DNA from: Acidobacteriota bacterium
GTDB taxonomy: Bacteria > Acidobacteriota > Terriglobia > Terriglobales > Acidobacteriaceae
Length of the DNA: 64,000 bases
Assembly: GCA_013289875.1 (NCBI GenBank)
Contig: JABCZC010000019.1
Location: forward strand, 1-64,000
Direction of reading: 5' to 3'
In this document: positions 49,438 through 64,000 of the stretch, in pieces
Layout: every line of letters starts with the position of its first letter
How positions within the stretch are numbered: the stretch's first letter is position 1
Made by a program: the position numbers and the translations under genes
Notes under the pieces: generated by a model
What the model was told of the DNA's origin: nothing
What the model saw: the letters and a program-made list of their open reading frames with translations, nothing else
The model's database searches: none

Positions 49438-50415
49438 TTGACGGCACACACTCCATCGCGGCTGGTGCGCATTGAGGCTCAGGCCCTGCTGGCCCTCGCC
49501 GAGCGCCTCGAAGGCCCCATGTCCGCGGCGTTCGACCGCGCCGTCGACTGCATTCTCCAATGCGGACAGGCTCGCGGCCGCGTCGTCGTTACAGGAATGG
49601 GCAAGAGCGGCATCATTGCGCAGAAGATCGCCGCAACGCTTAGCTCGACGGGGAGCCCCGCGCTCTTTCTACACCCGGCAGAGGCCGTGCACGGCGACCT
49701 CGGCATGCTCGCCCGCGGAGACGTCGTCATCGCCCTCTCCGCCAGCGGTGAAACCGAAGAGATCCTCCGCCTGCTTGCCAACATCAAGCGCATCGGCGAC
49801 GCGCTCATCAGCTTCTGCTGCAATACCGTATCGACTCTGGCCCTGTCGAGCGATATCTGCCTCGACGTGAGCGTTCCCGAAGAGGCCTGCGGCATGGGCC
49901 TCGCACCCACTGCCTCCACGACGGCAATGCTTGCTCTTGGGGACGCCCTCGCGATTGCCGTCTCGCTCAAGAAGGGCTTCCGCGCCGAGGACTTCGCCGA
50001 CCTGCACCCTGGCGGTAAGCTCGGCAAGCGTCTTTCCCGTGTCCGCGATCTCATGCATGCGGGCGAGGCAGTTCCACGGGTCACGATGACCACTCCCATG
50101 ACGGACGTGATCTACGAAATGTCTCGCAAGAAGCTGGGCATGACCACCGTCGAAGTCAACGGCCGGCTGATTGGCATCATCAGCGACGGCGATCTGCGCC
50201 GTTTGCTCGAACGCGATGGCCCGGAGGCCCTGAAAAAGACCGCCGGTGACGCGATGAATCCTCACCCGCGAACCATTGCCGCCGAAGAACTCGCCGTGCG
50301 CGCCCTGAGCATGATGGAGGAACAGAAGATTACGTCGCTGGTTGCAATCGATTCGTCGGGAACGATCGAAGGCGTCGTCCACCTGCACGATCTTTGGGAA
50401 ACCGAACTGATCTGA
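49438..50415 (+). CDS. kdsD: Arabinose-5-phosphate isomerase, KpsF/GutQ type
   Basis: A 325-residue sugar isomerase that turns ribulose-5-phosphate into arabinose-5-phosphate for KDO of lipopolysaccharide. The SIS domain (about 40-175) contains VTGMGKSGIIAQKIAATLSS and HPAEAVHGDLGM, and the tail is a CBS-domain pair (about 200-320). The reading begins at a TTG; a GTG 27 bases later is also possible. The STAS gene is convergent downstream, 29 bp from the stop. A gram-negative outer membrane with KDO-containing LPS is implied. Confidence 0.92.
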   Translation: MTAHTPSRLVRIEAQALLALAERLEGPMSAAFDRAVDCILQCGQARGRVVVTGMGKSGIIAQKIAATLSSTGSPALFLHPAEAVHGDLGMLARGDVVIALSASGETEEILRLLANIKRIGDALISFCCNTVSTLALSSDICLDVSVPEEACGMGLAPTASTTAMLALGDALAIAVSLKKGFRAEDFADLHPGGKLGKRLSRVRDLMHAGEAVPRVTMTTPMTDVIYEMSRKKLGMTTVEVNGRLIGIISDGDLRRLLERDGPEALKKTAGDAMNPHPRTIAAEELAVRALSMMEEQKITSLVAIDSSGTIEGVVHLHDLWETELI

Positions 50416-50444
50416 GATTCATCTCGAATCGAAGGAGCGCAGCC

Positions 50445-50786
50445 TCAAAGGCTCTCCGCTTCTTCGGCCGTCGCCGCCATCGGAATGAGCGAATCCACAT
50501 GCGTCAGCTTGAACAGCTCGATAACGCGGAAGTTAAGTCCTGCCGCGATCAGCTTGTGCCCCCGCCTTTGCGCCGAGACGTAATAGTTGATAATCGCGCC
50601 CATGCCTGCCGAGTCCATATATTCCACTTCGGAGAGGTCAAGGATCGTGACCGGCGGGTTTTCCTTCTCCAATTCCGCCTTGAGCGCGAAGAAATTACTT
50701 AGAAGAATCGGCCCGGTGACGTGCACCACCCGCGTCCCCTCTGACTTGCCAGCGATCACTTCAATACCCAGAGTCACTTGTTGCAT
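50445..50786 (-). CDS. STAS-domain anti-sigma factor antagonist
   Basis: A 113-residue STAS-domain protein. ILDLSEVEYMDSAGMGAII carries the phosphorylatable serine (DSAGMG), as in SpoIIAA/RsbV. Such proteins release a sigma factor by binding an anti-sigma kinase, and are controlled by phosphorylation at this serine. No kinase or sigma gene is adjacent, so the partner lies elsewhere. I see no ribosome binding site before the ATG. It faces the mraY promoter region. Confidence 0.88.
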   Translation of the reverse strand: MQQVTLGIEVIAGKSEGTRVVHVTGPILLSNFFALKAELEKENPPVTILDLSEVEYMDSAGMGAIINYYVSAQRRGHKLIAAGLNFRVIELFKLTHVDSLIPMAATAEEAESL

Positions 50787-50904
50787 AGCGATTTACAGTG
50801 TATGTACTCCTGACGGCTACCAATATTACAACAGCGTGAATACCTCGTCTCGTGCCTGCCCCGCGGCCTTATCATTGGTGAAGTTCGCGGCTCCCGGAGG
50901 ATTT

Positions 50905-52038
50905 TTGCTTTACTGGCTTCTTTATCAAAAGCTTTTCCCTTACTTCAGACCCTTCCGCATCTTCCGGTATCTGACGTTCCGCACCGCGTTTGCCACGCTC
51001 ACGGCGCTGCTCATCGCTTTGTTCGTCGGACCCTACGTTATTCAAAAACTGCGCGAGTTTCAAATCGGCCAGTACATTCGCGAAGAAGGCCCCAAGGAGC
51101 ACCAGAAGAAAGCCGGCACTCCGACCATGGGTGGCGTTCTCATCTGCATCGCGATCCTTCTGCCCACCCTTTTATGGTCCGACCTCTCGAATCCCTTCGT
51201 CTGGCTTGTCATGGGTTCCACCGTAGCATTTGGAGCCATTGGCTTCGCCGACGACTACATCAAGGTCGTCCACCGCCGTAATCTCGGACTCACCGCCCGT
51301 GCCAAGCTCGGCTATCAGGCTCTCGCGTCGGCCGCAATCGCCGTGGTTCTCGTTGCTATGCAGAGCCTGGGCATCTACTCCACCCAGCTCACCGTGCCCT
51401 TCCTCAAAAACTTCCATCCTCATCTCTCGCTCGGCCCTCTTACGCATATCCCGCACATTAGCCTGCTGGCATTCCTGCCCTTTGTTGTCTTCATCGTGCT
51501 GGTAATTGTTTTTTCCAGCAACGCCGTGAACCTCACCGACGGGCTCGACGGCCTGGCTATCGGCTGCACCATCGTCGCCGCCGGAGCCCTCACCGTTCTT
51601 ACCTATGTCAGCGGCCATGTGGTCTTTTCGGACTACCTCGAGTTGCAGCGAATGCCGATGGTTGGCGAGGTGACCGTCTTTTGCGGCTGCATGGTTGGCG
51701 CCAGCATCGGCTTCCTCTGGTACAACGCGCACCCCGCCGAAGTCTTCATGGGCGACGTTGGGTCGCTCGCGCTGGGCGGCGCCATCGGCACCGTGGCCGT
51801 CGTCATCCGGCAGGAGCTGCTCCTGCCTTTCATCGGAGGCATCTTCGTCCTCGAAGCCTTCTCCGTCATCCTCCAGGTCGGCAGTTACAAGCTCCGCAAA
51901 AAGCGCATCTTCAAAATGGCGCCCCTCCACCATCACTTCGAGCTGATGGGCTGGTCCGAATCGAAAGTCATTGTCCGGTTCTGGATCGGGGCCCTGGTGT
52001 TTGCACTCTTTGCACTCACCACCCTGAAGCTGCGATAA
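50905..52038 (+). CDS. mraY: Phospho-N-acetylmuramoyl-pentapeptide transferase
   Basis: A 377-residue multi-pass enzyme that attaches the UDP-MurNAc-pentapeptide to undecaprenyl phosphate, making lipid I. Conserved parts are GTPTMGG, FADDYIKV, NLTDGLDGLAIG, MGDVGSLALGG and APLHHHFELMGW. A TTG start is supported by GGAGG five bases upstream and by the family N-terminus LYWLLYQKLFP; an upstream ATG reading overlaps the STAS gene. It starts the mur segment here, with murD about 100 bp further on. No murE or murF precedes it, unlike the usual cluster. Confidence 0.95.
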   Translation: MLYWLLYQKLFPYFRPFRIFRYLTFRTAFATLTALLIALFVGPYVIQKLREFQIGQYIREEGPKEHQKKAGTPTMGGVLICIAILLPTLLWSDLSNPFVWLVMGSTVAFGAIGFADDYIKVVHRRNLGLTARAKLGYQALASAAIAVVLVAMQSLGIYSTQLTVPFLKNFHPHLSLGPLTHIPHISLLAFLPFVVFIVLVIVFSSNAVNLTDGLDGLAIGCTIVAAGALTVLTYVSGHVVFSDYLELQRMPMVGEVTVFCGCMVGASIGFLWYNAHPAEVFMGDVGSLALGGAIGTVAVVIRQELLLPFIGGIFVLEAFSVILQVGSYKLRKKRIFKMAPLHHHFELMGWSESKVIVRFWIGALVFALFALTTLKLR

Positions 52039-52140
52039 ACACAGCGTCGAACGTGCAACAATGACCTGTCCGGCTGAAACCCGGAGCAGCGAAAGTGCGC
52101 CAATTTCCCACGGATGGGTTCACCTTCTAAACTCGTGAGC

Positions 52141-53520
52141 ATGGAACTAAAAGGCAAAAAGGTACTCGTCGTCGGACTCGGCAAGTCCGGCCTGGCCGCT
52201 GCGCTCTTTCTCCGGCGCAAGGGTGCGCAGGTGACTGTCTCCGATGTTCGCAGCGCCGCCGCGCTCGCCCATGATCTTCCCGCGCTTCTCGACCAGGGCA
52301 TTATGGTGGAAGCCGGAGGCCACGGCCTGCTTACATTCCGCCGCCAGGACCTCATCGTCGTCAGCCCCGGCGTTCCGCTCGATACCCCCGAGCTCGTTCA
52401 GGTGCGCAACTTCGGCCTGCCTGTCATCGGAGAACTGGAGCTGGCCGCGCGCTTCCTCGCCGGCAAGACCCTCGCCATCACCGGCTCGAACGGCAAGACC
52501 ACCACTACCAGCCTATGCGGCGAAATCCTCGCCGCCGCGCATTTTCGCGTCCACGTTGGCGGAAACATCGGCGTGCCTGTCATCGCTCTGGTCGACGACT
52601 CTCGCGAGGATGGCTGGTCGGTCCTTGAGGTTTCCAGCTTCCAGCTTGAGACCACATACCAGTTCCGCCCCGATATTGCCGTTATCCTCAACATCACGCC
52701 TGACCATCTCGATCGCCACGGCAGCATGGAGAATTATATTGCCGCCAAGGAGCGCATCTTCGCCAATCAGGGACCCGAAGACGCACTCGTCCTGAACGCC
52801 GACGACGATGCCGCCTCGCGTGCCGCAGCCCGCACGAAATCGCGGCTCTTCTGGTTCAGCCGAACGCGCATCATCCGTCAGGGAGCCTTCATATACGACG
52901 GGGCTATCTACTTTCGCGCCACCGAGCAGTCTGCGCCCGAGTTCATCCTCAAGGTCGAATCCATCCCTCTCAAGGGCCAGCACAATATCGAGAATGTTCT
53001 CGCCGCCGTCTGTGCCGCTCGCCTCGCCGATGTCGCCTCTGATGCCATCCGCCGCGCTGTTGAGGCCTTTCGCGCCGTCGAGCACCGCCTCGAGTTTGTC
53101 GCCACGGTCAATGGCGTCGACTACTACAACGACTCCAAGGCCACCAATGTCGATGCGGCCATGAAGGCTATCGCTGCTTTCCCCTCAGGCATTCACCTCA
53201 TCCTGGGTGGCAAGGACAAGAACTCCGACTACCGCCTCATGCGTCCGCTCATACAGGAGCGCGTAACGGCGATTTACACCATAGGCGCGGCGTCAGAAAA
53301 AATCATCACGCACCTCGAAGGCTCCGCGCCCATTGTCAACTCCGGCACGCTGGATGTAGCGGTGACCAAAGCAGCCGATGCCGCACAGCCGGGCGAAATC
53401 ATTCTGCTCGCGCCCGCTTGCTCGAGCTTCGATCAGTTTCAGAACTACGAACAGCGCGGGCAGGTCTTCAAGGACCTGGTCTTCGCCCGCCGTGGGATCC
53501 CTGAATGGCAAAGCGCATAG
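52141..53520 (+). CDS. murD: UDP-N-acetylmuramoylalanine-D-glutamate ligase
   Basis: A 459-residue Mur ligase that adds D-glutamate to UDP-MurNAc-L-Ala. VLVVGLGKSGLAAALFL is the N-terminal Rossmann domain, ITGSNGKTTTTSLCGEIL the P-loop, then VLEVSSFQLET and TPDHLDRH, and the C-terminal domain has VDYYNDSKATNVDA and GGKDKNSDY. I prefer the ATG nearest the conserved start; an ATG 27 bases upstream is possible. Its last bases form one copy of a 21-bp repeat shared with the ftsW start. Confidence 0.95.
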   Translation: MELKGKKVLVVGLGKSGLAAALFLRRKGAQVTVSDVRSAAALAHDLPALLDQGIMVEAGGHGLLTFRRQDLIVVSPGVPLDTPELVQVRNFGLPVIGELELAARFLAGKTLAITGSNGKTTTTSLCGEILAAAHFRVHVGGNIGVPVIALVDDSREDGWSVLEVSSFQLETTYQFRPDIAVILNITPDHLDRHGSMENYIAAKERIFANQGPEDALVLNADDDAASRAAARTKSRLFWFSRTRIIRQGAFIYDGAIYFRATEQSAPEFILKVESIPLKGQHNIENVLAAVCAARLADVASDAIRRAVEAFRAVEHRLEFVATVNGVDYYNDSKATNVDAAMKAIAAFPSGIHLILGGKDKNSDYRLMRPLIQERVTAIYTIGAASEKIITHLEGSAPIVNSGTLDVAVTKAADAAQPGEIILLAPACSSFDQFQNYEQRGQVFKDLVFARRGIPEWQSA

Positions 53521-53546
53521 GAGCCGAATGGCAAAACGCGTAGGAG
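53503..53546 (+). repeat. Near-perfect 21-bp direct repeat across the murD/ftsW junction
   Basis: The sequence GAATGGCAAA(G/A)CGC(A/G)TAGGAG occurs twice, 23 bases apart, 19 of 21 bases alike. The first copy holds the murD stop and the GGAG before ftsW; the second holds the ftsW ATG. The first copy also contains an out-of-frame ATG with the short reading MAKRI-stop, against ftsW's MAKRVGV. Confidence 0.85.
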
Positions 53547-54619
53547 TGGACAAATGGCTATTCGGCGCCACACTGGTGCTCGTCGTCATCGGACTGCTTA
53601 TGGTCTTCAGCGCCTCTGCCGTGATGGCCAAGGAGCGTTTCGGTTCGCCCTACGCCTTCGTCATTCGCCAGTCGCTGTGGGCCGTCTTCGGACTCACCGC
53701 CATGACCATCCTGATGCAGGTCGACTACCGGCGCTTTAACAAACCGAATGTCGTCTTCCCGGCCGTCGCTGTCTCCGCCCTGCTGCTGCTCGTTGCCTTC
53801 CTCATGCACGATTCGCACGCCACCCACCGCTGGATTCGCTTTGGCGCGCTCTCCTTCCAGCCATCCGAGATCGCCAAGCCCGCGCTCGTACTCTTCCTCG
53901 CGTGGTTTCTGCAGAACCGCATGCACTCGATTGAGGATTTCCGCGGCACCATCCTGCCCGCCGCGCTGCCCAGCCTCATCTTCATTGCGCTGATTCTCAA
54001 AGAGCCCGATCTCGGCACTGCCCTTGTCTGCGCCGGAGTTACTGCGCTCATGCTCTATCTCGCCGGCATGAACATGCGCTATCTCGGCGTCGCCGCGCTC
54101 GCCGCAGCGCCAGTGCTCTATTTCATGCTCTTTCGTGTGAAGTGGCGTCGGGACCGCATCCTCGCCTTCCTCAATCCCGAGTCCGACCCGCTCGGCAAGG
54201 GTTTCCACATTATTCAATCGCTCATTGCCGTCGGAACCGGCGGCCTTCGCGGCCTGGGTTACATGGACGGCCGGCAGAAACTCTTCTATCTACCCGAACC
54301 GCACACCGACTACATCTTCGCCAACGTTGCCGAAGAGCTCGGCCTTATCGGAGCCTTCGCCGTTGTCGGACTCTTCGTCGTGCTCGGCTACCGCGGCATG
54401 CGGGCGGCTATCCTGTCGAAAGACCCCTTCGCCCGCTTCCTGGCCTTCGGCATCACCGCGACCCTTCTCATCCAGGCGTTTTTCAACATCAGCGTCGTGC
54501 TCGCTCTTGTCCCCACCAAAGGCATCACTCTGCCCTTCATCTCCTACGGCGGAACCTCGCTCTTCATCATGCTCGCCTCCATCGGCGTGCTGCTCAACAT
54601 CACCCGCGAGGTGGATTAG
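53528..54619 (+). CDS. ftsW: Peptidoglycan polymerase FtsW (SEDS family)
   Basis: A 363-residue SEDS membrane protein with about ten helices that polymerises lipid II at the division septum. Family landmarks are RWIRFGALSFQPSEIAKPA, PDLGTALV, LPEPHTDYIFANVAEELGL and PTKGITLPFISYGGTS. GGAG in the preceding repeat sits 4 bases before the ATG. It starts 7 bp after murD and is followed by murG with a 4-base gap, so the three are one transcript. RodA is close in sequence, but the gene neighbours favour FtsW. Confidence 0.93.
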   Translation: MAKRVGVDKWLFGATLVLVVIGLLMVFSASAVMAKERFGSPYAFVIRQSLWAVFGLTAMTILMQVDYRRFNKPNVVFPAVAVSALLLLVAFLMHDSHATHRWIRFGALSFQPSEIAKPALVLFLAWFLQNRMHSIEDFRGTILPAALPSLIFIALILKEPDLGTALVCAGVTALMLYLAGMNMRYLGVAALAAAPVLYFMLFRVKWRRDRILAFLNPESDPLGKGFHIIQSLIAVGTGGLRGLGYMDGRQKLFYLPEPHTDYIFANVAEELGLIGAFAVVGLFVVLGYRGMRAAILSKDPFARFLAFGITATLLIQAFFNISVVLALVPTKGITLPFISYGGTSLFIMLASIGVLLNITREVD

Positions 54620-54623
54620 CGTC

Positions 54624-55694
54624 GTGCGTGTCGCCATTGCCGGAGGAGGCACCGGCGGCCACATCATTCCCGCCCTTGCCATTGCCGGAGAGCTCAAATC
54701 CGCTTGCAACGCCGAGATCCTCTTCATCGGAACCTCGCGTGGTCTCGAATCGCGCCTCGTGCCGCAGGCCGGATACCCGCTCTCGCTCATCGAAGTGGGC
54801 CAGCTCAAGAACGTTTCGCTCCTGACCAAAGCGCGAACATTGCTCGATCTGCCCCTCAGCCTCATCCGCTGCCGCAAACTCCTGCGCGACTTCCGTCCCA
54901 ACGTCGTCATCGGAGTCGGCGGCTATGCTTCCGGCCCGGCTATGGGAGCAGCCATTCTTGACGGCATCCCCACGCTCGCCTTCGAGCCGAACGCCTTTCC
55001 GGGCCTCGCCAATCGCCTGGTCGGCAAGCGCGTCAACGCTGCCGCTGTCAACTTCGCCGCCGCCGCCAAATACTTCCGGAACCCTCAAATCACCGGAATC
55101 CCCGTGCGCGCAGAATTCTTCCGCCTCTCGCCTCGCCCCGCCGGTGCGCCGCCGCACCTGCTTGTTTTTGGAGGCAGCCAGGGTGCCCGCATCCTCAACA
55201 CATTGATGCCGCAGATCGCCTCTTCGCTTCTCGCTGCTGTGCCCGGTCTCACCATCCTCCACCAGGCGGGAGCCCGTCACGGCGAAACCACTCTGGCCGC
55301 CTACCAGGCCAGCAACGCTCCCTCAGATCGCTGGCAGGTCCACGCCTTCCTCGACAACATGCCCCGCCTCTTCGAAGCAGCCGACTTGGTCCTCTCCAGG
55401 AGCGGAGCCAGCACCGTCGCCGAACTGGCCGCGGCGGGAAAGCCGTCGCTGCTTATCCCTTTTCCCCACGCCGCCGACGACCACCAACGGAAAAACGCTG
55501 AAGCGCTTGCGGAGGCAGGCGCGGCAATCGTGTTCCTGGAAGCCGGCCTCACCCCAGAGAACCTTCTGCAAACCCTGACTCGTCTCCTCACAGACCGGCA
55601 GTCACTTGAACAAATGTCCGCTCAGGCACGCGTCCTCGCCCATCCCGATGCGACCAGCCGCATCGCGGCGATGGCAATCGAAGTCGCCCGCTAG
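54624..55694 (+). CDS. murG: UDP-N-acetylglucosamine transferase MurG
   Basis: A 356-residue GT-B glycosyltransferase that adds GlcNAc to lipid I to make lipid II on the inner membrane face. Diagnostic segments are VAIAGGGTGGHIIPALAIA, VGGYASGPAMGAA, FGGSQGARILN and LSRSGASTVAELAAAGKP, with PFPHAADDHQRKNAE. The start is GTG, preceded by GAGGTGG about 7 bases upstream inside the end of ftsW. A good bidirectional terminator follows the stop, so the mur transcript ends here, and murC lies 3.2 kb further on. Confidence 0.95.
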   Translation: MRVAIAGGGTGGHIIPALAIAGELKSACNAEILFIGTSRGLESRLVPQAGYPLSLIEVGQLKNVSLLTKARTLLDLPLSLIRCRKLLRDFRPNVVIGVGGYASGPAMGAAILDGIPTLAFEPNAFPGLANRLVGKRVNAAAVNFAAAAKYFRNPQITGIPVRAEFFRLSPRPAGAPPHLLVFGGSQGARILNTLMPQIASSLLAAVPGLTILHQAGARHGETTLAAYQASNAPSDRWQVHAFLDNMPRLFEAADLVLSRSGASTVAELAAAGKPSLLIPFPHAADDHQRKNAEALAEAGAAIVFLEAGLTPENLLQTLTRLLTDRQSLEQMSAQARVLAHPDATSRIAAMAIEVAR

Positions 55695-55713
55695 CTTCTT
55701 GCGCAAAAAAGCA

Positions 55714-55742
55714 AAAGGCCCGTTCCGAAGAACGAGCCTTTT
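55714..55742. terminator. Bidirectional terminator between murG and the glycine-rich gene
   Basis: AAAAGGC and CGTTC face GAACG and GCCTTT around a CGAA loop, with A-run on one side and T-run on the other, so it can stop transcripts from both convergent genes. It starts 20 bp after murG. Confidence 0.75.
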
Positions 55743-55758
55743 CGTGAATCCTTAAGAC

Positions 55759-56448
55759 TTACCGGTGTCCGCCGCCACCGCCGTGTCCGCCGCCGCCGCC
55801 GCCGTGGAAGCCTCCGCCTCCGCCTCCACCGCCATGGAAGCCGCCACCGCTGACGCCACCGCCACGGTAGCCACCACCGCTGACGCCACCGCCACGGTAG
55901 CCACCGGTAGCCCCGCCGTAAGCGCGAGCGCCGCCGTAGCTACCTGCGCCCCGGTATCCCGAAGTCCCGCCGTAACCGGTCGTTCCACGATAGCCGCCAG
56001 CATACCCGGCGCTGCGATAGCCACTGGTCGCTCCAAACCCTGCACGGCTGCCGCTATAGGGAGTGGGTCGAGCACCGTTATATCCGCCACGATATCCGTA
56101 TCCACCGCCATAGCCGTAACCACCGCGCCAGCCGTAGTAGCCCGCATGACCGTAGCCCCAACCCCACGGGTGGCCGTACCAGCCGTGATACCAAGGTCCG
56201 GCGCCGATAAACAAGCCGCCCCAGAACCAGCTGGCGCCGTAGTATCCGTAAGGCGCGCAGGCGTAAGGATAGTACCCGTAATAGCCCCACGAACAGACCG
56301 GAGGACCAGCCACATAAACCGGCGCGGGATAACCGACATCAGGGCCGATACCGATGCCAACAGCCACCTGAGCGCTGGCAGCGGAGGGCATCAGTGCCAA
56401 CGGAACCACCAGCAGTAAAGCCAAAATTGAATAGCGCAGGATGCGCAT
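55759..56448 (-). CDS. Glycine- and tyrosine-rich secreted protein
   Basis: A 229-residue exported protein: a Sec signal (about 5-27, ending ASAQ), then a short hydrophobic section with YYGYYPYACAPYGYYG, and from about 90 on a low-complexity tail of Gly, Tyr, Ser, Arg and His, ending in GGGGGHGGGGGHR. No enzyme domain is seen. Such proteins are thought to be cell-surface or matrix components. GGAGGA before the ATG fixes the start. It lies on the opposite strand inside the mur segment, facing murG. Confidence 0.75.
   Translation of the reverse strand: MRILRYSILALLLVVPLALMPSAASAQVAVGIGIGPDVGYPAPVYVAGPPVCSWGYYGYYPYACAPYGYYGASWFWGGLFIGAGPWYHGWYGHPWGWGYGHAGYYGWRGGYGYGGGYGYRGGYNGARPTPYSGSRAGFGATSGYRSAGYAGGYRGTTGYGGTSGYRGAGSYGGARAYGGATGGYRGGGVSGGGYRGGGVSGGGFHGGGGGGGGFHGGGGGGHGGGGGHR
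55846..55905. repeat. Perfect 30-bp tandem duplication in a glycine-rich tail
   Basis: Two identical 30-base units, side by side, encode GGVSGGGYRG twice in the C-terminal tail of the secreted protein. The identity suggests recent expansion. Confidence 0.85.
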
Positions 56449-56602
56449 CTGAAATCCTCCTCGTCGCCTTTGATTCAGGCCGACGCGGCTTGCGGAATCC
56501 GGTCTTGAAAGCTCGCTTTCCGGATCATCTTTAAGCCTACCTCTACAAACAGTAGATGTGGGGAAAAGTTGCGTGGATTCCTGTTTCTGGAAGCAGTCTT
56601 CG

Positions 56603-56626
56603 ATGCCACAAAAGTGGCATTTTTTT
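56603..56626 (+). terminator. Plus-strand hairpin with T-run in a gap between minus-strand genes
   Basis: ATGCCAC pairs perfectly with GTGGCAT around AAAA and is followed by six or more T. It is a good plus-strand terminator, yet both flanking genes are on the minus strand, so it may end a plus-strand transcript in this 274-bp gap. Confidence 0.6.
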
Positions 56627-56641
56627 GCCTCCAATAACAGA

Positions 56642-56669
56642 GCACCCGGATGCGGGAACATCCGGGTGC
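56642..56669 (-). terminator. Hairpin after the small WxxGxW-like gene
   Basis: GCACCCGGATG and CATCCGGGTGC form a perfect 11-bp stem with a 6-base loop, 53 bp after the minus-strand gene. The following bases lack a T-run, so it is a stable hairpin but a weak terminator. Confidence 0.5.
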
Positions 56670-56722
56670 AGGTTCGAGCAGCGTCTGGGGAACGCGGCTC
56701 GCGCGGCTGACGGAGCCGGCTC

Positions 56723-57016
56723 TTAGCGCCGTCCGTGGTCCCAGCCGCGACGATCGAAGTGATAGTCGCGATGCTCAATATAGAAGCGGTCGCGATGCGC
56801 CCAGCGGCCCGGTACCCAAACCGCTCCCGCGTAGTAGCCGGGTGTCCAGTAGAAGTCGACGCCAGGGCAGGGCGGGACGTAGCCGCCGTAATAAATCGGT
56901 GCAGGAGAACCAACCCGAACCGCGATTCCAACCTGTGCCTGGGCCTGTGCCTGTCCCGCGACAGCTGCCGCTGCCACTACGCCAGTAAGTGCGAGGGTGC
57001 GAAGAATGTTTCTCAT
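56723..57016 (-). CDS. Small secreted WxxGxW-like protein
   Basis: A 97-residue exported protein. The signal covers about residues 7-25 (ALTGVVAAAAVAGQAQAQ); the mature part contains FYWTPGYYAGAVWVPGRW, the WxPGxW / WxxGxW motif of small acidobacterial and proteobacterial secreted proteins, then a basic tail. AAAGGGG before the ATG fixes the start. It is followed by a stable hairpin. The function is unknown; the motif is thought to be structural. Confidence 0.75.
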   Translation of the reverse strand: MRNILRTLALTGVVAAAAVAGQAQAQAQVGIAVRVGSPAPIYYGGYVPPCPGVDFYWTPGYYAGAVWVPGRWAHRDRFYIEHRDYHFDRRGWDHGRR

Positions 57017-57170
57017 ACGAGCCCCTTTCGAGTGTGGCTTCGAACCTCTATCGAAGGCCTTCAACTCAACTGCTCTGCGTATGTGAACAAGAGCTCAGAC
57101 GAATTGTTGCGGATGTTTATTTTCGCGTGCACGCGCAACTTTCAGGCGTCTCGTGCATCGCGCCGCGCGT

Positions 57171-58823
57171 TCACCGCTTCGCGCAAGTTGGCGCTTTACC
57201 TGACGGAGGCCACAACGCGCCAAAGATCTGCAGCGACGTGTCCGGCAGGTCCTTCACCGTGAGCGAGTCGCCAAAGTCCATGTACGGCACCTCGCCGTTC
57301 GATCCAATGCGCGTCCAATCCGAGCTCATCATCAGGCGCGGATCGCCGATGTGCGCGAAGTGCACCCACATGGTCATGATCTGGTCGGAGAGCCGGTGAT
57401 CGGCAGGCTTGAATTGCAGCATCGGCGCATGCTCATCGGGTTGATGCGTGTGTCCGAAGACATAGACGAGTTCCGAGGCGTGGAACGCGCCCATGCCGGA
57501 GGCCTCGCCAATGGGGCTGACGTGAGTGAAGCGATACAGGAATCCATGCGTGCCCCGCGCGATCGAGAAGGCATTGTAGAGCTGAATCGAATCGGTGAGC
57601 AGACGATCGGCCGCGTCGTGGATCTGGTCAGGCGTCGCGGGCGACTGCGGCTCATAGAGTGCGAGCACCTGCTTGCCGCATGGAGCGTAAGCCTGCTCCA
57701 CCCACGCATTGAAGCTGCTTGTATCCTTCGGATGGTAGCTCCGCAGAAAGAGATTCCCTTCATTCGTATTGCTGCCGACGAGCACAGGTATGCGCATGGC
57801 GCGGTTTTCAGCGTAGAGCTGCGCCGGTTGGCCGGGAATCACAACGCCATCTGCAAAAGGAGCCCATGGCGATGCCACGAACGGCGTGTTATTGAGCGGA
57901 GTCTCAGGTCGCAGTCGCGCGCGCGCTATGCCTGCGGCAAAAACCTTTTCCGCAGCCTGTTGTCCGCGCTCCATGATCTCTTCGCTCTTGAGACTTCGCA
58001 GGTCGGCAATATGAGGCGCGGCGGCGACGCCAATGCTTTCCATACTGGCAAGGCCGCGATACTCCTTGCTCAACTCCGGAGACGGCTGAAAGACGATGCT
58101 CGGGCTTTCGAGGATCGCCTTGTCGAAGAGTTCCTTTGCATCCGGCGCGACCAGTAGATAGCCAATGCTGCTCGCCCCCGCCGATTCGCCGAATACGGTG
58201 ATGTTGCGCGAATCGCCTCCGAGTGCAGAGATATTCTGCCGCACCCACCGCAGCGCCGCCATCTGGTCGAGAAGAGCGTAGTTGCCCGACGTATGCCGTG
58301 ACGACTCGGCGCTCAAATCAGGATGTGCGAGGAACCCGAAGATGCCGAGCCGGTAATTGATCGTGACAACCACGATTCCGCGATTCGCGAGATTGGAGCC
58401 GTCGAACTGCGGCTGAGAGCCCGATCCGGTGATGAATGAGCCTCCATGAATGAACACCATCACCGGCGCAGGTACGGTCGGAGTGAGCGACGGCGTCCAG
58501 ACATTAAGAGAAAGACAGTCTTCGCTCATCGTGGAGCGTGGTATGCCCATAAGAGGCGTTTCCGGCTGCATGCACGCCGTGCCAAACTTCGTCGCATCTC
58601 GCACGCCGCTCCATCCCGGCTCCGGCTTCGGCTCCCGCCAACGGAGATCGCCTACCGGAGGCGCGGCATAGGGAATGCCCTTGAAAACGAGCGGCCCCAT
58701 GGTGGAAACTTCGCCTTCGAGTTCTCCCTGGGAGATGCGAACGTGCGGCGCGGCAAGCTGCCCGCGTAGCGGGAGAGAGAGCATCGGGAGCACAAGAAAC
58801 AGGGCAGCGAAGCGGGATCGCAT
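57171..58823 (-). CDS. Carboxylesterase type B, secreted
   Basis: A 550-residue alpha/beta hydrolase of the type B carboxylesterase family. After a signal (about 6-22) the domain shows VMVFIHGGSF (oxyanion hole), FGESAGASSIG with the catalytic Ser, NTNEGNLF with the acidic member, and GAFHASELVYVFG with the His. It would hydrolyse esters of small or medium chain length in the periplasm. The second ATG was taken because GGAG is then at 6 bases. Its position, opposite in strand and just before murC, belongs to a three-gene insertion in the mur segment. Confidence 0.92.
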   Translation of the reverse strand: MRSRFAALFLVLPMLSLPLRGQLAAPHVRISQGELEGEVSTMGPLVFKGIPYAAPPVGDLRWREPKPEPGWSGVRDATKFGTACMQPETPLMGIPRSTMSEDCLSLNVWTPSLTPTVPAPVMVFIHGGSFITGSGSQPQFDGSNLANRGIVVVTINYRLGIFGFLAHPDLSAESSRHTSGNYALLDQMAALRWVRQNISALGGDSRNITVFGESAGASSIGYLLVAPDAKELFDKAILESPSIVFQPSPELSKEYRGLASMESIGVAAAPHIADLRSLKSEEIMERGQQAAEKVFAAGIARARLRPETPLNNTPFVASPWAPFADGVVIPGQPAQLYAENRAMRIPVLVGSNTNEGNLFLRSYHPKDTSSFNAWVEQAYAPCGKQVLALYEPQSPATPDQIHDAADRLLTDSIQLYNAFSIARGTHGFLYRFTHVSPIGEASGMGAFHASELVYVFGHTHQPDEHAPMLQFKPADHRLSDQIMTMWVHFAHIGDPRLMMSSDWTRIGSNGEVPYMDFGDSLTVKDLPDTSLQIFGALWPPSGKAPTCAKR

Positions 58824-58876
58824 CGGCATCTCCGAACGGCGCTGTTAGAGTAACGTAGGCACTTTAAATCAGCATC

Positions 58877-60277
58877 ATGTTTCTCAAACCACAGCGAGTC
58901 CACTTCATCGGAATCGGCGGCATCGGCATGAGCGGCATTGCCGAAATTCTCCTCAACCTCGGCAATACCGTCAGCGGCTCCGACCTGCGCCACACGCCCA
59001 TCACCGAACGGCTGGCATCGCTCGGCGCGACCATCTTCGAGGGCCACGCCGCCGCCAATGTCGTCGGTGCAGGAGTCGTCGTCGCTAGCTCCGCGGTGAA
59101 TGAGCGCAATCCCGAAGTCGTCGAGGCGCGCCGTCGCAAAGTCCCTGTGATCCAGCGTGCCGAAATGCTCGCCGAGCTCATGCGCCTCAAATATGGAATC
59201 GCTGTTGCCGGCATGCACGGCAAGACCACCACCACATCCATGATTGCCACCGTGCTCGCCGCCGGCGAACTTGATCCCACCGTCGTCGTCGGAGGCCGCG
59301 TCGATACCCTCGGCTCGAACGCGCGCCTCGGCAAGTCACAATACCTTGTCGCGGAGGCCGACGAGAGCGACCGCTCTTTCCTGAAGTTGTCGCCCATTCT
59401 CGCCGTCGTCACGAATCTCGACCGCGAGCACATGGACTGCTACCGCGACATGGCCGACATCGAAAATGCCTTCATCGAGTTCATGGATCGCGTGCCCTTT
59501 TACGGAGCATGCGTGGCCTGCCTCGACAATCCGCAGCTTGCCTCCATCCTGCCGCGCATCCGCCCAAAGGTCTTCACCTACGGAACCGATTCCCGCGCCG
59601 ATTACATCCTGCGCATGCTGCCGCCGATCGAAGGAGTGCATTCGCGCTTCGAAGTCGCCACATGCAATGGCTGCGTGCTCGGCCCCTTTGAGCTGCACGT
59701 CCCCGGAGCCCACAACGTCCTTAACGCAACAGCCGCCGTGGCCGTCGCTGACCAGTTGGAAATCAAGCCCGATGCCATTGCGCAGGGGATAACCAACTTT
59801 CGCGGCGTCGACCGGCGCTTCCAGCTCAAAGGCTGCGTCAACGGCATCGCTGTCATCGACGATTACGGACATCATCCCACCGAAATCCGCGCCACTCTGC
59901 GCGCCGCCCGGGACTGCAATTACAGCCGCATCCACGTCATCTTCCAGCCGCATCGTTACACCCGCACCCGCGACTTATTGGAAGACTTCATCAGGGCCTT
60001 CGACGACGCGTCCACCGTCGAAGTGCTCGATATTTACGCCGCCAGCGAAGAACCCATCGAGGGCGTTACCGCGCAGCTCCTGGTTGCAGCTATCGACCGC
60101 GATGGCGTGGAGTATGCCGCCTCCAGCGAGCAGGCCATTGCACAGGTCATCGGAAAAGCACAGCCGAACGACGCAATTCTCACCCTCGGTGCCGGCAACG
60201 TATCCCAGATTGCGCCTCGCTTGCTGGAGAAACTGGCGGCGGGTCAGTTCGAACCCGCACCGGATTCCGTACAATAG
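58877..60277 (+). CDS. murC: UDP-N-acetylmuramate-L-alanine ligase
   Basis: A 466-residue Mur ligase that adds L-alanine to UDP-MurNAc, the first amino acid of the stem peptide. HFIGIGGIGMSGIAEILLN is the N-terminal domain, GMHGKTTTTSMIATVL the P-loop, and EADESDRSFLKL, NLDREHMDCY and DDYGHHPTEIRATL complete the family signature. Its start is 53 bp from the esterase start, divergent, so it must have its own promoter instead of the mur operon's. It is followed at 5 bp by the small Mop-like gene. Confidence 0.95.
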   Translation: MFLKPQRVHFIGIGGIGMSGIAEILLNLGNTVSGSDLRHTPITERLASLGATIFEGHAAANVVGAGVVVASSAVNERNPEVVEARRRKVPVIQRAEMLAELMRLKYGIAVAGMHGKTTTTSMIATVLAAGELDPTVVVGGRVDTLGSNARLGKSQYLVAEADESDRSFLKLSPILAVVTNLDREHMDCYRDMADIENAFIEFMDRVPFYGACVACLDNPQLASILPRIRPKVFTYGTDSRADYILRMLPPIEGVHSRFEVATCNGCVLGPFELHVPGAHNVLNATAAVAVADQLEIKPDAIAQGITNFRGVDRRFQLKGCVNGIAVIDDYGHHPTEIRATLRAARDCNYSRIHVIFQPHRYTRTRDLLEDFIRAFDDASTVEVLDIYAASEEPIEGVTAQLLVAAIDRDGVEYAASSEQAIAQVIGKAQPNDAILTLGAGNVSQIAPRLLEKLAAGQFEPAPDSVQ

Positions 60278-60282
60278 CGCAC

Positions 60283-60489
60283 ATGAAGATCTCAGCGCGC
60301 AATCAATTACCAGGAACCGTAGAAGCGGTTGTTCTTGGAACAGTCACGGCAAAGGTGAGCGTTCGCGTGGGCGACAACCTGATAGAAAGTGTGATCACTC
60401 GCCAAAGTGTGGAAGACATGAACATTAAAGTAGGAGATCAGGTCACGGCGGTCATCAAGTCAACCGAGATTATGCTCATGGTGGGCTGA
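60283..60489 (+). CDS. Mop-type TOBE domain molybdate-binding protein
   Basis: A 68-residue single TOBE/Mop domain. KISARNQLPGTVEAVVLGTV and GDQVTAVIKSTEIMLMV are typical of small molybdopterin-binding or molybdate-storage (Mop) proteins. These oligomerise and bind molybdate or tungstate in the cytoplasm. It begins 5 bp after the murC stop and is likely co-transcribed, which is an odd pairing. No molybdate transporter is adjacent. Confidence 0.9.
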   Translation: MKISARNQLPGTVEAVVLGTVTAKVSVRVGDNLIESVITRQSVEDMNIKVGDQVTAVIKSTEIMLMVG

Positions 60490-60612
60490 CTCTGCCTTTG
60501 TGCGGCATGCGATCGCGTATCGCTTCGCCTCTCGCCGACAACCGATTCAGCCGGCTGAGTTTCAGACAGCCGATTTGAGACGCAATCGAAGGCACAACGC
60601 AATAAGGAATCT

Positions 60613-60861
60613 ATGACCTCTCTTCAGGAATTCAGATGTGAAGTCTGCGGAACTGTAACCAGCAATCCTGCCCACTGGTTCGTGATTCAATGCGGCGATT
60701 GGGAGCTCACGGTTCTCAAATGGAACGCGGAGGCCGCAAACGCGCCCGAAGCGCGGCACTACTGCGGAGAAGCCCACGCTCAGGTGTACATCAGCCGATG
60801 GTTTGGCTCAGTGTGTTCGCCATCGAAGCCGGACTTCACCAGGGCCTCGTCGGCGCAGTAG
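60613..60861 (+). CDS. Small Cys-rich protein of unknown function
   Basis: An 82-residue protein. FRCEVCGTVTSNPAHWFVI and ARHYCGEAHAQVYISRWF contain a CxxC and a later Cys and His, so a zinc-binding fold is likely. No named family was recognised, but related short proteins recur in acidobacterial genomes as far as I recall. The C-terminal 15 residues are low-complexity. It is followed by 123 bp without a gene before the convergent MBL-fold gene. Confidence 0.6.
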   Translation: MTSLQEFRCEVCGTVTSNPAHWFVIQCGDWELTVLKWNAEAANAPEARHYCGEAHAQVYISRWFGSVCSPSKPDFTRASSAQ

Positions 60862-60984
60862 CGGGCAGATTTCTCGTCGTCGAAAAAGCTCCGCAAGAGA
60901 CCATGTGTTCTGTTTCTGCCGAAGATGTACTCCTTACCCTCCATCATCCGCCGAGGAAACATTCGCATCAGCGGTTGATGTGGG

Positions 60985-61875
60985 TTATGGCTGAGGAAAT
61001 CCGAACATCAACCACGATTGATTGGCTACCCAATGCGGGTATAGCTCCGTCATCTGGTCGAACAGATCCTGGTCGGACGTCGCGGTTTTCTGCAGCCGAT
61101 CGAAGTCCTGCAGGTAACGCCTGGTCTCCTGGATGGCCGAGGGAGAGTCAGGCGCACCGGGCTTCTTGTGACCGGCGACGACAATCGCCGGGTTCAGCGC
61201 CGCTAACCGGTCCAGCGCCGCGATCCAATTCTTTCGGCTCTCGGGGGTGGTGTCGCCGACGTACATGCGGCATTGGTTGTACACAACGTCGCCAGCGACG
61301 ATCAGGCCGATCGATGGAACGTGTAGAGACGTCGTATCGGGACTATCGGTGTGGCCCTGTTCGATGATGCGCAATTCGTGGCCCTCGAGAGTGAACGTGT
61401 CGTGCTCATAGGGCTCAGGTGCAACCAACTTAGTAGCCACTTGCCCGGGAAACAACCGGCGGGCTAGCCGCTCCACTGTGGGGGACAAATACATCCGCAT
61501 GGCGTCCACCGTCTGGGGCGTTGCGATCGCCCGAGCGCCCGGGAAACGGTCGAGCAGAACGCTCAGACCGTAGAAGTGGTCGAAATGCGCATGCGTGATG
61601 TAGATGGTCTCCAGGTTGCGGTTGTGCAACGCAACCCAATCCGCGAGAGCCTCGGCCTCAGCCACCGTCGTCATTGCGTCTACCAGCACCGCGTCGTGCT
61701 CGCCGAAGATTAAAGTCGACGTGATCGGATCAAAGCCGAGCGGCTCGCCGAAGGGCTTTGGCCGCTCGCCGACCATAGCCTTTCCCGGTGCGGTAAAAAC
61801 GTTCACACTCAGCGTGTTCGACGCGACAGGCGCGGTCACGCGCGTGGTCTCTTTCACTCCATTTGTGCCGTCCAT
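60985..61875 (-). CDS. MBL-fold metallo-hydrolase in the arsenic locus
   Basis: A 296-residue metallo-beta-lactamase fold protein. The metal motif is THAHFDHFYG (HxHxDH); further ligands would be the His in EQGHTDSPDTTSL, the Asp in VAGDVVYN, and the final His in VVAGHKKPG. Its reaction is unknown; relatives include quinolinate-type and persulfide hydrolases. AAAGGA lies 7 bases before the ATG. It starts 18 bp after the arsR stop on the same strand, so it should be under ArsR control, although such a gene is not a standard part of an ars operon. Confidence 0.85.
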   Translation of the reverse strand: MDGTNGVKETTRVTAPVASNTLSVNVFTAPGKAMVGERPKPFGEPLGFDPITSTLIFGEHDAVLVDAMTTVAEAEALADWVALHNRNLETIYITHAHFDHFYGLSVLLDRFPGARAIATPQTVDAMRMYLSPTVERLARRLFPGQVATKLVAPEPYEHDTFTLEGHELRIIEQGHTDSPDTTSLHVPSIGLIVAGDVVYNQCRMYVGDTTPESRKNWIAALDRLAALNPAIVVAGHKKPGAPDSPSAIQETRRYLQDFDRLQKTATSDQDLFDQMTELYPHWVANQSWLMFGFPQP

Positions 61876-61893
61876 TTGGAATTCCTTTCGATG

Positions 61894-62328
61894 TCAGAGC
61901 GAGTCACTGTTCAAGGCAAGATTGGCTGAGCTAGCTTCGACAGGAACAGGCAGCGGAGCCCCCTCCAGTGCTGATAGCTTTTGCGGACTGCAGCACGCGT
62001 TGCTGAAGCGTGCGAGATCGGCCTGCATCGCCTTCTCGTCGCTAAGAACGACCAGCGTTTCTCGCAGGATCTTGGCCGCGCTCGGGTTAGACGGCGCGAC
62101 GATTCTATAGTGCATCCATTTGCCTTCACGCCGAGCCGCGACAACGCCCGCACGTCTCAAGTAGGCGAGATGTCGCGAAATTTTGGGCTGACTCTGACCA
62201 AGGATCTCGACGAAATAGCAGACGCACACTTCCTTGCCATTCATCAGGTTCAACAACCTGAGTCGGGTCCGATCCGCAAGCGCGGCAAACAACAAAGCCA
62301 GGTCGTAGGTCCTTGGGGGCTGAGTCAC
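61894..62328 (-). CDS. arsR: ArsR-type metalloregulator
   Basis: A 144-residue winged-helix repressor. ALADRTRLRLLNLMNG and QPKISRHLAYLRRAGVV are the DNA-binding helices, and EVCVCYFVEIL holds the CVC pair like the arsenite site ELCVCDL of classic ArsR. Two more cysteines (SNACCSPQ) near the C-terminus may add to the site. Arsenite binding would release the promoter. I chose the GTG because longer readings run into the divergent arsM promoter; the start is not certain. It is the first gene of the ArsR/MBL transcript. Confidence 0.9.
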   Translation of the reverse strand: MTQPPRTYDLALLFAALADRTRLRLLNLMNGKEVCVCYFVEILGQSQPKISRHLAYLRRAGVVAARREGKWMHYRIVAPSNPSAAKILRETLVVLSDEKAMQADLARFSNACCSPQKLSALEGAPLPVPVEASSANLALNSDSL

Positions 62329-62346
62329 AGTTTCATAATATACGCC

Positions 62347-62376
62347 TTGACGGATGTGTCTGGAGGAGAATATATT
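62347..62376 (+). promoter_or_regulatory. arsM promoter (sigma-70 type) between arsR and arsM
   Basis: TTGACG and TATATT are spaced by 18 bases and lie about 30 bp before the arsM start. Just downstream, the AT-rich segment ATATTCG (6 bases) CGTATAC is a partial inverted repeat, likely the ArsR operator, and sits between the promoter and the GAGGAG ribosome site. Confidence 0.6.
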
Positions 62377-62404
62377 CGCTTTAACGTATACGAGGAGACT
62401 CATC

Positions 62405-63277
62405 GTGGAATCATCTACCCGTGTTCAGGAACAGGTAAAGGAGAAGTACGGGAGTGCCGCTCGCTCTGTGGCGCAATCCGGGAGCGTGCAGGCATGTTGT
62501 GACTCTGGCCTTCGCTGCTGCGATCCGATTACCACCAATCTCTACAGTACGGATCAAACGGGAGTGCTCCCGGAGAAGGCAGTGATGGCTTCGCTAGGAT
62601 GCGGTAATCCGACCGCATTGATTGATCTTCGCCCTGGGGAAACAGTTCTCGACTTGGGCTCCGGTGGCGGCATCGACGTATTGCTCTCAGCCAAGCGCGT
62701 CGGGCCGACCGGCAAAGCCTATGGGCTGGACATGACCGACGAGATGCTGGCCCTGGCGCGCGAAAACCAGAGGCAAGCGGACGTTACGAATGTCGAGTTT
62801 CTGAAGGGCGAGATCGAGAACATCCCACTACCGGACAACTCGGTTGATGTCATCATCTCGAACTGCGTCATCAATCTTTCCGCTGACAAAGATAGCGTTT
62901 TCGGTGAAGCCTTCCGCGTGCTGAAACCGGGAGGGCGGTTCGCAGTCTCCGATGTGGTCGTGCGCGGCAGCGTGCCGGAAGCGGTGCGCAAGAGCATGCT
63001 TCTCTGGGTCGGCTGCATTGCCGGAGCGCTCGAAGAGAGTGAGTATCTCGCGAAGCTGAAATCCGCCGGATTCGAAGACGTATCCGTCGATCCCACGCGC
63101 GTCTACAACGTAGAAGATGCCCGCCAGTTTCTTACCGAAGCAGGCGTTGATGTGGATGCCATCGCCCCCCAAGTCAATGAGAAGTTCTTCAGTGCCTTCG
63201 TGCGGGCCAACAAGTCCAAAGCCGCCTGCTGTCAACCTGGATGCTGCACGACTGCGATCACAGGAACAAGGGAATAA
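62405..63277 (+). CDS. arsM: Arsenite S-adenosylmethionine methyltransferase
   Basis: A 290-residue SAM-dependent methyltransferase that methylates As(III). The SAM site is VLDLGSGGGIDVLLSAKRVG, with DMTDEMLALA following. Cysteines at the expected places bind arsenite: SGSVQACCDSGLRCCD near the start, ISNCVINLS, and LLWVGCIAGAL. A Cys-rich tail (ACCQPGCC) is extra and also found in many members. The start is a GTG with GAGGAG 7 bases upstream. It opens the arsM-arsC-acr3 transcript and is divergent from arsR. Confidence 0.92.
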   Translation: MESSTRVQEQVKEKYGSAARSVAQSGSVQACCDSGLRCCDPITTNLYSTDQTGVLPEKAVMASLGCGNPTALIDLRPGETVLDLGSGGGIDVLLSAKRVGPTGKAYGLDMTDEMLALARENQRQADVTNVEFLKGEIENIPLPDNSVDVIISNCVINLSADKDSVFGEAFRVLKPGGRFAVSDVVVRGSVPEAVRKSMLLWVGCIAGALEESEYLAKLKSAGFEDVSVDPTRVYNVEDARQFLTEAGVDVDAIAPQVNEKFFSAFVRANKSKAACCQPGCCTTAITGTRE

Positions 63278-63281
63278 CAAG

Positions 63282-63773
63282 ATGGTCGATCATTACAACG
63301 TTCTATTTCTCTGCACGGGGAACTCGGCACGGTCGATCATGGCTGAAGCGATCCTGAACCACAAAGGCAAAGACAAGTTCACGGCCTATAGCGCAGGCAG
63401 CCATCCGACTGGACAGCCGCGGCCGGAAGCACTCCAGCAGATCGAATCGGCCGGACTCGCGACGGCGGCCTTGCGCAGCAAGTCATGGGATGAGTTTTCA
63501 GGGCCGGGTGCGCCGAAACTCGACTTCGTCTTCACCGTGTGCGACAACGCAGCGAAGGAACAGTGTCCTTACTGGCCCGGGCAGCCGATGACGGCGCACT
63601 GGGGTATTGCTGATCCAGCGGCGGTCAAGGGCACCCCAGAGGAAATCGCACGCGCATTTCGAGATGCCTTCACAGTGCTTGACCGCAGAATCGGGCTATT
63701 CCTCTCGCTGCCCCTCCCGACGCTCGAAAACATGGCCATTAAGCGCGAAATCGACCAGATAGGCCGGTCGTAG
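63282..63773 (+). CDS. arsC: Arsenate reductase, low molecular weight phosphatase type
   Basis: A 163-residue arsenate reductase of the thioredoxin-linked, phosphatase-like family. The P-loop is FLCTGNSARSIMAEAIL with the nucleophilic Cys, and VCDNAAKEQCPYW carries the second and third cysteines used in the Cys relay of plasmid pI258 ArsC. It reduces As(V) to As(III) for export or methylation. It starts 4 bp after the arsM stop. The ATG was chosen over upstream frames which overlap arsM. Confidence 0.92.
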   Translation: MVDHYNVLFLCTGNSARSIMAEAILNHKGKDKFTAYSAGSHPTGQPRPEALQQIESAGLATAALRSKSWDEFSGPGAPKLDFVFTVCDNAAKEQCPYWPGQPMTAHWGIADPAAVKGTPEEIARAFRDAFTVLDRRIGLFLSLPLPTLENMAIKREIDQIGRS

Positions 63774-63782
63774 GAGGCAACG

Positions 63783-64000
63783 GTGAAGAAGAGTCGCTTG
63801 TCTTTTCTAGATCGCTATCTGACGGGATGGATCTTCGCTGCGATGGCGTTGGGTGTGGCCCTCGGCTGGCTTGCTCCTGGCGTCGTGCAGTTTCTGAACC
63901 GATTCAACATCGGCACAACCTCAGTACCGATTGCGGCGGGTCTGATCCTGATGATGTACCCGCCATTTACGCGGGTCCGATACGAAGAACTGCATGAGGT
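63783..64000 (+). CDS. acr3: ACR3 family arsenite efflux transporter, N-terminal part
   Basis: The first 72 codons of an ACR3/ArsB-type arsenite exporter; the rest lies beyond the window. The reading starts at a GTG with AGGAGG 5 bases upstream: [20 protein letters not shown], then the first helix, a periplasmic loop and [19 protein letters not shown], as in the 10-helix ACR3 family. It pumps arsenite out of the cell. It follows arsC by 9 bp, completing the reduce, methylate and export set. Confidence 0.9.

Follow-up and report, generated by a model that had tools for sequence, protein, structure and literature searches.

Opposite-strand secreted-protein genes between murG and murC in one clade of the Acidobacteriaceae

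Introduction

The division and cell wall (dcw) cluster is known for the wide conservation of its gene order, which usually runs murE-murF-mraY-murD-ftsW-murG-murC ... ftsQ-ftsA-ftsZ. In the window, a stretch of 64,000 nucleotides from a genome of the family Acidobacteriaceae (G000:C19:1-64000; genome of 5.05 Mb in 184 contigs; G, C and L denote our genomes, contigs and loci), murG and murC are not adjacent as in the canonical cluster. They are spaced by 3.2 kb, which hold three genes on the opposite strand: GlyR, which encodes a Gly/Tyr-rich secreted protein, Sml, which encodes a small secreted WXXGXW-like protein, and a gene for a secreted type-B carboxylesterase (Table 1). How did these genes enter the cluster, and what became of murC once it was cut off from murG? 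The three genes had been described in the first-pass annotation of the window, and open reading frames (ORFs) and Pfam matches bear this description out. The same annotation had proposed either a local inversion and insertion or a lineage-specific rearrangement, and the gene orders of relatives speak for the latter. It is likely that an insertion in the common ancestor of the clade to which the window belongs split the dcw operon, that murC became its own transcription unit, and that the linkage of the two genes decayed thereafter.

Gene order across the family

The genes of the window were mapped onto the murC surroundings of 59 relatives (60 loci). A gap of 0-475 bp separates murG from murC in one half of the family and in the outgroups, the exceptions being L102 of genome G033 (2.55 kb), L094 of G046 (murC turned round) and L106 (fragmentary murG). 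In the other half of the family, the two genes are never adjacent wherever both were seen. A tree of seven genes from 48 genomes unites the window's half as clade A with a support of 1.0; none of its 19 genomes has an adjacent pair, and 23 of the 25 genomes of clade B do.

The contrast was also found in a survey of 160 genomes drawn from the family, in which murG and murC could both be located in 141 and a distance of 600 bp or less was counted as adjacent. The pair is adjacent in 74 genomes, is parted by an insert of 0.9-3.3 kb in 29 and lies on different contigs in another 29; in the remaining 9, the genes are far apart, on opposite strands or reordered. Adjacency occurs in 0 of 55 genomes of clade A, which includes Silvibacterium bohemicum, versus 74 of 86 outside it. 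For this count, 12 non-adjacent genomes that are not on the tree were assigned by the identity of their murG to that of the window, with 60% or more taken as clade A, which placed three inside (G113, G128, G159) and nine outside (G082, G085, G105, G116, G123, G130, G142, G170, G189); the adjacent off-tree genomes, all with at most 59% murG identity, were counted as outside.

A second tree, built from murC and murG of 108 genomes, again gives clade A a support of 1.0. Its 58 members include no adjacent pair: 28 have an insert, 8 have the genes apart on one contig, 19 have them on different contigs and 3 are undecidable. Clade B (46 genomes, support 0.868) has 43 adjacent pairs; 20 of the 21 clade B genomes added for this tree had been picked as adjacent, so that 43 of 46 flatters the contrast and the survey count is fairer. 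The three exceptions in this sister clade are G033 (L102), with a different insert, G046 (L094/L141), with murC turned relative to murG, and G086 (L280), with murG and murC on separate contigs.

In a scan of a genome collection, 17 of the 26 records most like the window (L153-L178) hold both genes, nine with an insert and eight with a gap of at most 319 bp; some gaps in these records were measured from murC residue 22 and are hence about 65 bp too long, and some records are genomes already in the first set. The insert-bearing records are Edaphobacter lichenicola, three Granulicella, a Terriglobus metagenome-assembled genome (MAG), Acidobacteriaceae KBS 89, ZG23-2 and two MAGs without a genus name. 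Thus, the comparison of gene order that the first-pass annotation had suggested reveals that the arrangement is not confined to this genome, since murG, insert and murC follow each other in many genera, and the condition that the annotation had named as refuting, a shared order among related genera, largely holds. The carboxylesterase was found at this place in the window's genus alone.

A promoter-like box before murC

The clearest conserved stretch upstream of murC is a box of the form TGnTAnAGT/TGnTAnnnT. It was counted at −60 to −15 from murC, and the first 19 clade A genomes served as the discovery set. In the first set, TGnTAnnnT is present in 15 of 19 genomes of clade A, 3 of 24 of clade B and 0 of 17 of the outgroup, the shuffle expectation being 0.5 of 19 and 0.54 of 24 for the two clades. 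Among the genomes fetched later, it is found in 30 of 39 of clade A versus 2 of 21 of clade B (Fisher 4.6e-7, uncorrected for relatedness), a value which overstates the evidence on account of the relatedness of the genomes and of the choice of the clade B controls, of which 20 of 21, all but G086, had been picked as murG-murC adjacent. The stricter pattern TGnTAnAnT occurs in 12 of 19 clade A versus 0 of 24 clade B genomes of the first set, and then in 24 of 39 versus 0 of 21; before mraY, where it was sought in 12 clade A genomes, it was not found. The form TGnTAnAGT is rare, with only 23 occurrences on both strands of 960,226 nt from 26 clade A loci, murC sites included. The box persists though the upstream neighbour of murC varies, which may be the carboxylesterase, Sml, GlyR, a WXXGXW gene or none of these.

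In the window, TGTTAGAGT at −34 shows the TGn extension and the TAnnnT core close upstream of the start codon that mark an extended −10 promoter of the sigma-70 type. The box before murC therefore reads as a putative extended −10 promoter element, which lies about 15-60 nt ahead of the start codon and from which murC would be transcribed, while transcription of the upstream block would end after murG. A separate murC transcript, as proposed in the first-pass annotation, is thus probable on account of the conserved box and of the terminator-like hairpin behind murG, although hairpins of this type are not above chance in the region.

Later separation of murG and murC

In eight genomes of clade A, murG and murC are located on one contig at distances from 36 kb to some Mb. 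Read by eye from the 108-genome tree, they fall on at least five branches, namely G001/G007, G025/G157 with their neighbours, G047/G111 (branch support only 0.2), G166 and G168. The two genes have kept different parts of the insert. GlyR stays with murG in G001, G004 and G041, and GlyR together with Sml in G007. As for murC, G047 has GlyR upstream of it, as does G111 within 4.5 kb; G157 and G109 have Sml there, G001 has Sml and the carboxylesterase, and G007, G004 and G008 have the carboxylesterase but no Sml. This differing retention by murG and murC indicates different breakpoints, and in several lineages the genes would have moved apart via breaks inside or beside the insert. Once murG and murC were no longer co-transcribed, their linkage would have been free to decay, with relaxed selection as the presumed reason for dispersal; a course from insert to promoter to dispersal would account for these states.

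A further arrangement is seen in G043, where a murG-GlyR-Sml-murC block lies on one contig (L147, C12) and ftsW is located 2.6 kb from ftsZ on another (L071, C8), which looks as though the block departed from the cluster and the gap behind it was sealed.

The genes of the insert

In G020, G024, G039 and G042 as well as in the named records of Edaphobacter, Granulicella and Terriglobus, the insert consists of one or two opposite-strand genes for secreted WXXGXW-repeat proteins, which have several repeats and mostly a Gly-rich tail. The one such protein that was tested, P0003 from the clade A genome G042, matches PF12779 with 30.7 bits, the cut-off being 18. GlyR and/or Sml genes, likewise on the − strand, take this position in the focal lineage and its neighbours. 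Sml scores 14.7 bits against PF12779 and stays below the cut-off; however, a profile comparison of 6 Sml with 15 long WXXGXW sequences from the same place in relatives gave 99.3% in hhalign (69 columns), and 98.1% (48 columns) without the signal-peptide stretch. Judged from these profiles, Sml is a relative of the WXXGXW proteins with or without that stretch, and the earlier label "WxxGxW-like" was fair.

GlyR has no Pfam or NCBIfam match, and no Pfam family was hit at E values up to 5. A derivation of GlyR from the WXXGXW proteins was rejected: the initial profile similarity of 96% came from the signal-peptide stretch and fell to 0.8% without it. Other clade A genomes have relatives of GlyR behind murG or ahead of murC, Sml and GlyR are found together in several genomes, and both kinds have paralogues elsewhere in these genomes. 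The operon was probably split by the insertion of a secreted WXXGXW-type gene on the opposite strand, which GlyR, as a second kind of secreted gene, would have joined or replaced in part of clade A. The insert of G006 (L063, G006:C388) contains a further gene, methyltransferase-like as named by eye, and a search of the 9.9 kb upstream of murG showed no ftsW, murD or mraY.

The PF00135 domain of the carboxylesterase spans residues 27-525 of 552, and the serine motif G-[EQ]-S-A-G is present in all eight orthologues (GESAG in seven, GQSAG in one). The gene adjoins murC in all seven congeners that have an orthologue (G001, G002 and G004-G008; in G005 the contig breaks inside murC), even where murG is distant. 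Outside the window's genus, it was not found beside murC in the loci examined; in the named record L157, a 33%-identical paralogue lies 3.7 kb downstream of murC. The carboxylesterase gene would thus have been added beside murC in the ancestor of the window's genus.

Layout of the locus

Table 1. Features of the murG-murC region, in positions of the window.
Feature	Position	Strand	Remarks
mraY	50827..52038	+	start approximate; Pfam PF00953 and MraY signature; heads the remaining mraY-murD-ftsW-murG block
murD	52114..53520	+	named from ORF translation; anchor gene in the comparison of relatives
ftsW	53528..54619	+	named from ORF translation; anchor gene in the comparison of relatives
murG	54621..55694	+	start approximate; PF03033 and PF04101
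Terminator-like hairpin, convergent, between murG and GlyR	55713..55742	.	13-pair stem; T-rich tail on the − strand; consensus match only
GlyR (Gly/Tyr-rich secreted protein)	55759..56448	−	229 aa; signal-peptide-like N terminus
Sml (small secreted WXXGXW-like protein)	56723..57016	−	97 aa
Type-B carboxylesterase, secreted	57171..58829	−	PF00135, E 1.3e-108
Extended −10 promoter-like box TGTTAGAGT	58843..58851	+	34 nt before the murC start codon
murC	58877..60277	+	PF01225, PF08245, PF02875

The order mraY-murD-ftsW-murG is retained in the window as in the canonical cluster. It had also been claimed that mraY is not preceded by murE and murF, and this holds: its upstream neighbours are a STAS gene on the opposite strand and, named by eye, a KpsF/KdsD-like gene. 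In the same genome, murE is on contig C6 and ftsZ on contig C20, both well inside their contigs, so that this genome has its dcw cluster broken into three or more pieces. The single contig of the congener G002 carries murE at 0.48 Mb and mraY-murG at 3.60 Mb.

The gene with the STAS domain (PF01740; 50445-50786, − strand) sits between the KpsF/KdsD-like gene and mraY, in G002 as well, and gives a second case of an opposite-strand gene where the dcw cluster is broken. At the other end, an arsenic cluster lies near murC (61894-64000), with an ArsR regulator (− strand, by Pfam) followed by an ArsM-like methyltransferase, an ArsC-like phosphatase and an open-ended ACR3-like ORF, all three named by eye.

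Alternative explanations

It is very improbable that the three genes reflect a recent insertion or inversion in this genome alone. The carboxylesterase, for which this place was seen in the focal genus alone, would agree with such an event; however, secreted genes of this kind on the opposite strand separate murG from murC in many other genera and in named species, and no mobile gene is among the three ORFs. The insertion scars for which the first-pass annotation had suggested examining the flanks did not turn up: no tRNA was found there, 50000-62000 gave no Rfam match, and no repeats frame the insert, apart from a Gly-codon tract together with an imperfect pair of 26 nt and an inverted pair of 17 nt within it. 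A tRNA-borne or repeat-framed element was discarded for want of a tRNA and of framing repeats. A recent local inversion was rejected as well, since murG and murC keep their strand, opposite-strand genes were added and the layout is clade-wide, and so was an assembly artefact, as the one-contig genome G002 shows the same order. A hot spot, into which WXXGXW and GlyR genes entered more than once, is regarded as somewhat unlikely. The lack of detectable kinship between GlyR and the WXXGXW proteins when they are compared without the signal-peptide stretch, the multiple copies of both families in these genomes and the different insert of a clade B genus (G033) would fit it, but clade A is one supported clade in which no adjacent member was found, many of its branches have a WXXGXW-type gene, in the long form or as Sml, at this position, and Sml co-occurs with GlyR in several genomes. 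That the box is a regulator-binding site or a chance remnant, murC being expressed from elsewhere, is unlikely: a −35 match is missing and not every clade A genome has the box, yet the box resembles an extended −10 element in its position, its TG extension and its TAnnnT core, and it is both rare and kept while the upstream neighbours differ.

The preferred account, in which one ancestral insertion split the operon, murC gained its own promoter and the linkage decayed, has several observations against it. Outside the signal-peptide stretch, GlyR is unlike the WXXGXW proteins, which leaves only place, strand and the WXXGXW/Sml line to argue for one insertion. Junctions outside clade A are broken too (G033, G130, G046, G086 and eight more different-contig genomes), so breakage does not need this insert, and different-contig cases are partly assembly breaks, as in G150, which has a murG fragment 1 kb before murC. 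With regard to the box, clade and adjacency are confounded in the comparison, the 3 of 24 in clade B is slightly above the shuffles (10 of 500 reach 3), and 9 of the 39 later clade A genomes lack it within the counted stretch (G092, G104, G136, G140, G155, G167, G178, G187, G195), two of which carry the pattern further upstream (G187 at −80, G092 at −96). A consensus promoter scan of 55400-59100 returned no sigma-70 site, and terminator-like hairpins in the region are within chance (5 found versus 3.3 expected, sd 2.1). What the genomes show directly is the gene orders, their spread over the tree and the conserved box; promoter and terminator activity, a single first insertion, the order in which promoter and insert were gained and relaxed selection behind the dispersal are inferred.

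Comparison with known systems

Operon splitting and dispersal of the dcw cluster are already known in general: PMC8871954, in the parts considered here, gives the list of dcw genes and describes Cyanobacteria, in which these genes are almost fully dispersed and most of them kept. What the present comparison adds is the placement of the insertion on a tree, the clade-specific promoter-like box and the repeated later separation. Among the matches listed in a search of open-licence papers, none dealt with this murG-murC rearrangement. Because its states can be compared across dozens of genomes, the system allows testing whether independent transcription of one gene leads to the break-up of an essential operon; for annotation, murC is likely its own transcription unit in the Edaphobacter, Granulicella, Terriglobus and Silvibacterium relatives. 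A tentative and rather doubtful extension is that the insert and the private extended −10 promoter made murC a portable single-gene unit, with the insert as a recurrent dcw breakpoint in one clade and the WXXGXW/Gly-rich proteins possibly as envelope components tied to murein synthesis; if true, one natural experiment, the death of an operon of essential genes, would have been run repeatedly in this clade.

Compared with the canonical dcw cluster, the window shares the order and strand of mraY-murD-ftsW-murG, and most of the clade B genomes and outgroups examined have retained the adjacency of murG and murC; the window differs in that murE, the mraY-murG block with nearby murC, and ftsZ are separate, and in the opposite-strand genes at the murG-murC junction. 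Among the protein families of the insert, the WXXGXW repeat family PF12779 includes P0003 above its cut-off, with the window's Sml below it and GlyR unmatched, and the carboxylesterase is a nearly full-length member of PF00135 with the serine motif and was found next to murC in the window's genus alone. With the dispersed dcw genes of Cyanobacteria, as described in that part of PMC8871954, the Acidobacteriaceae share the loss of linkage and the retention of most genes; here, in contrast, a single family offers the adjacent, insert-only and separated states for comparison.

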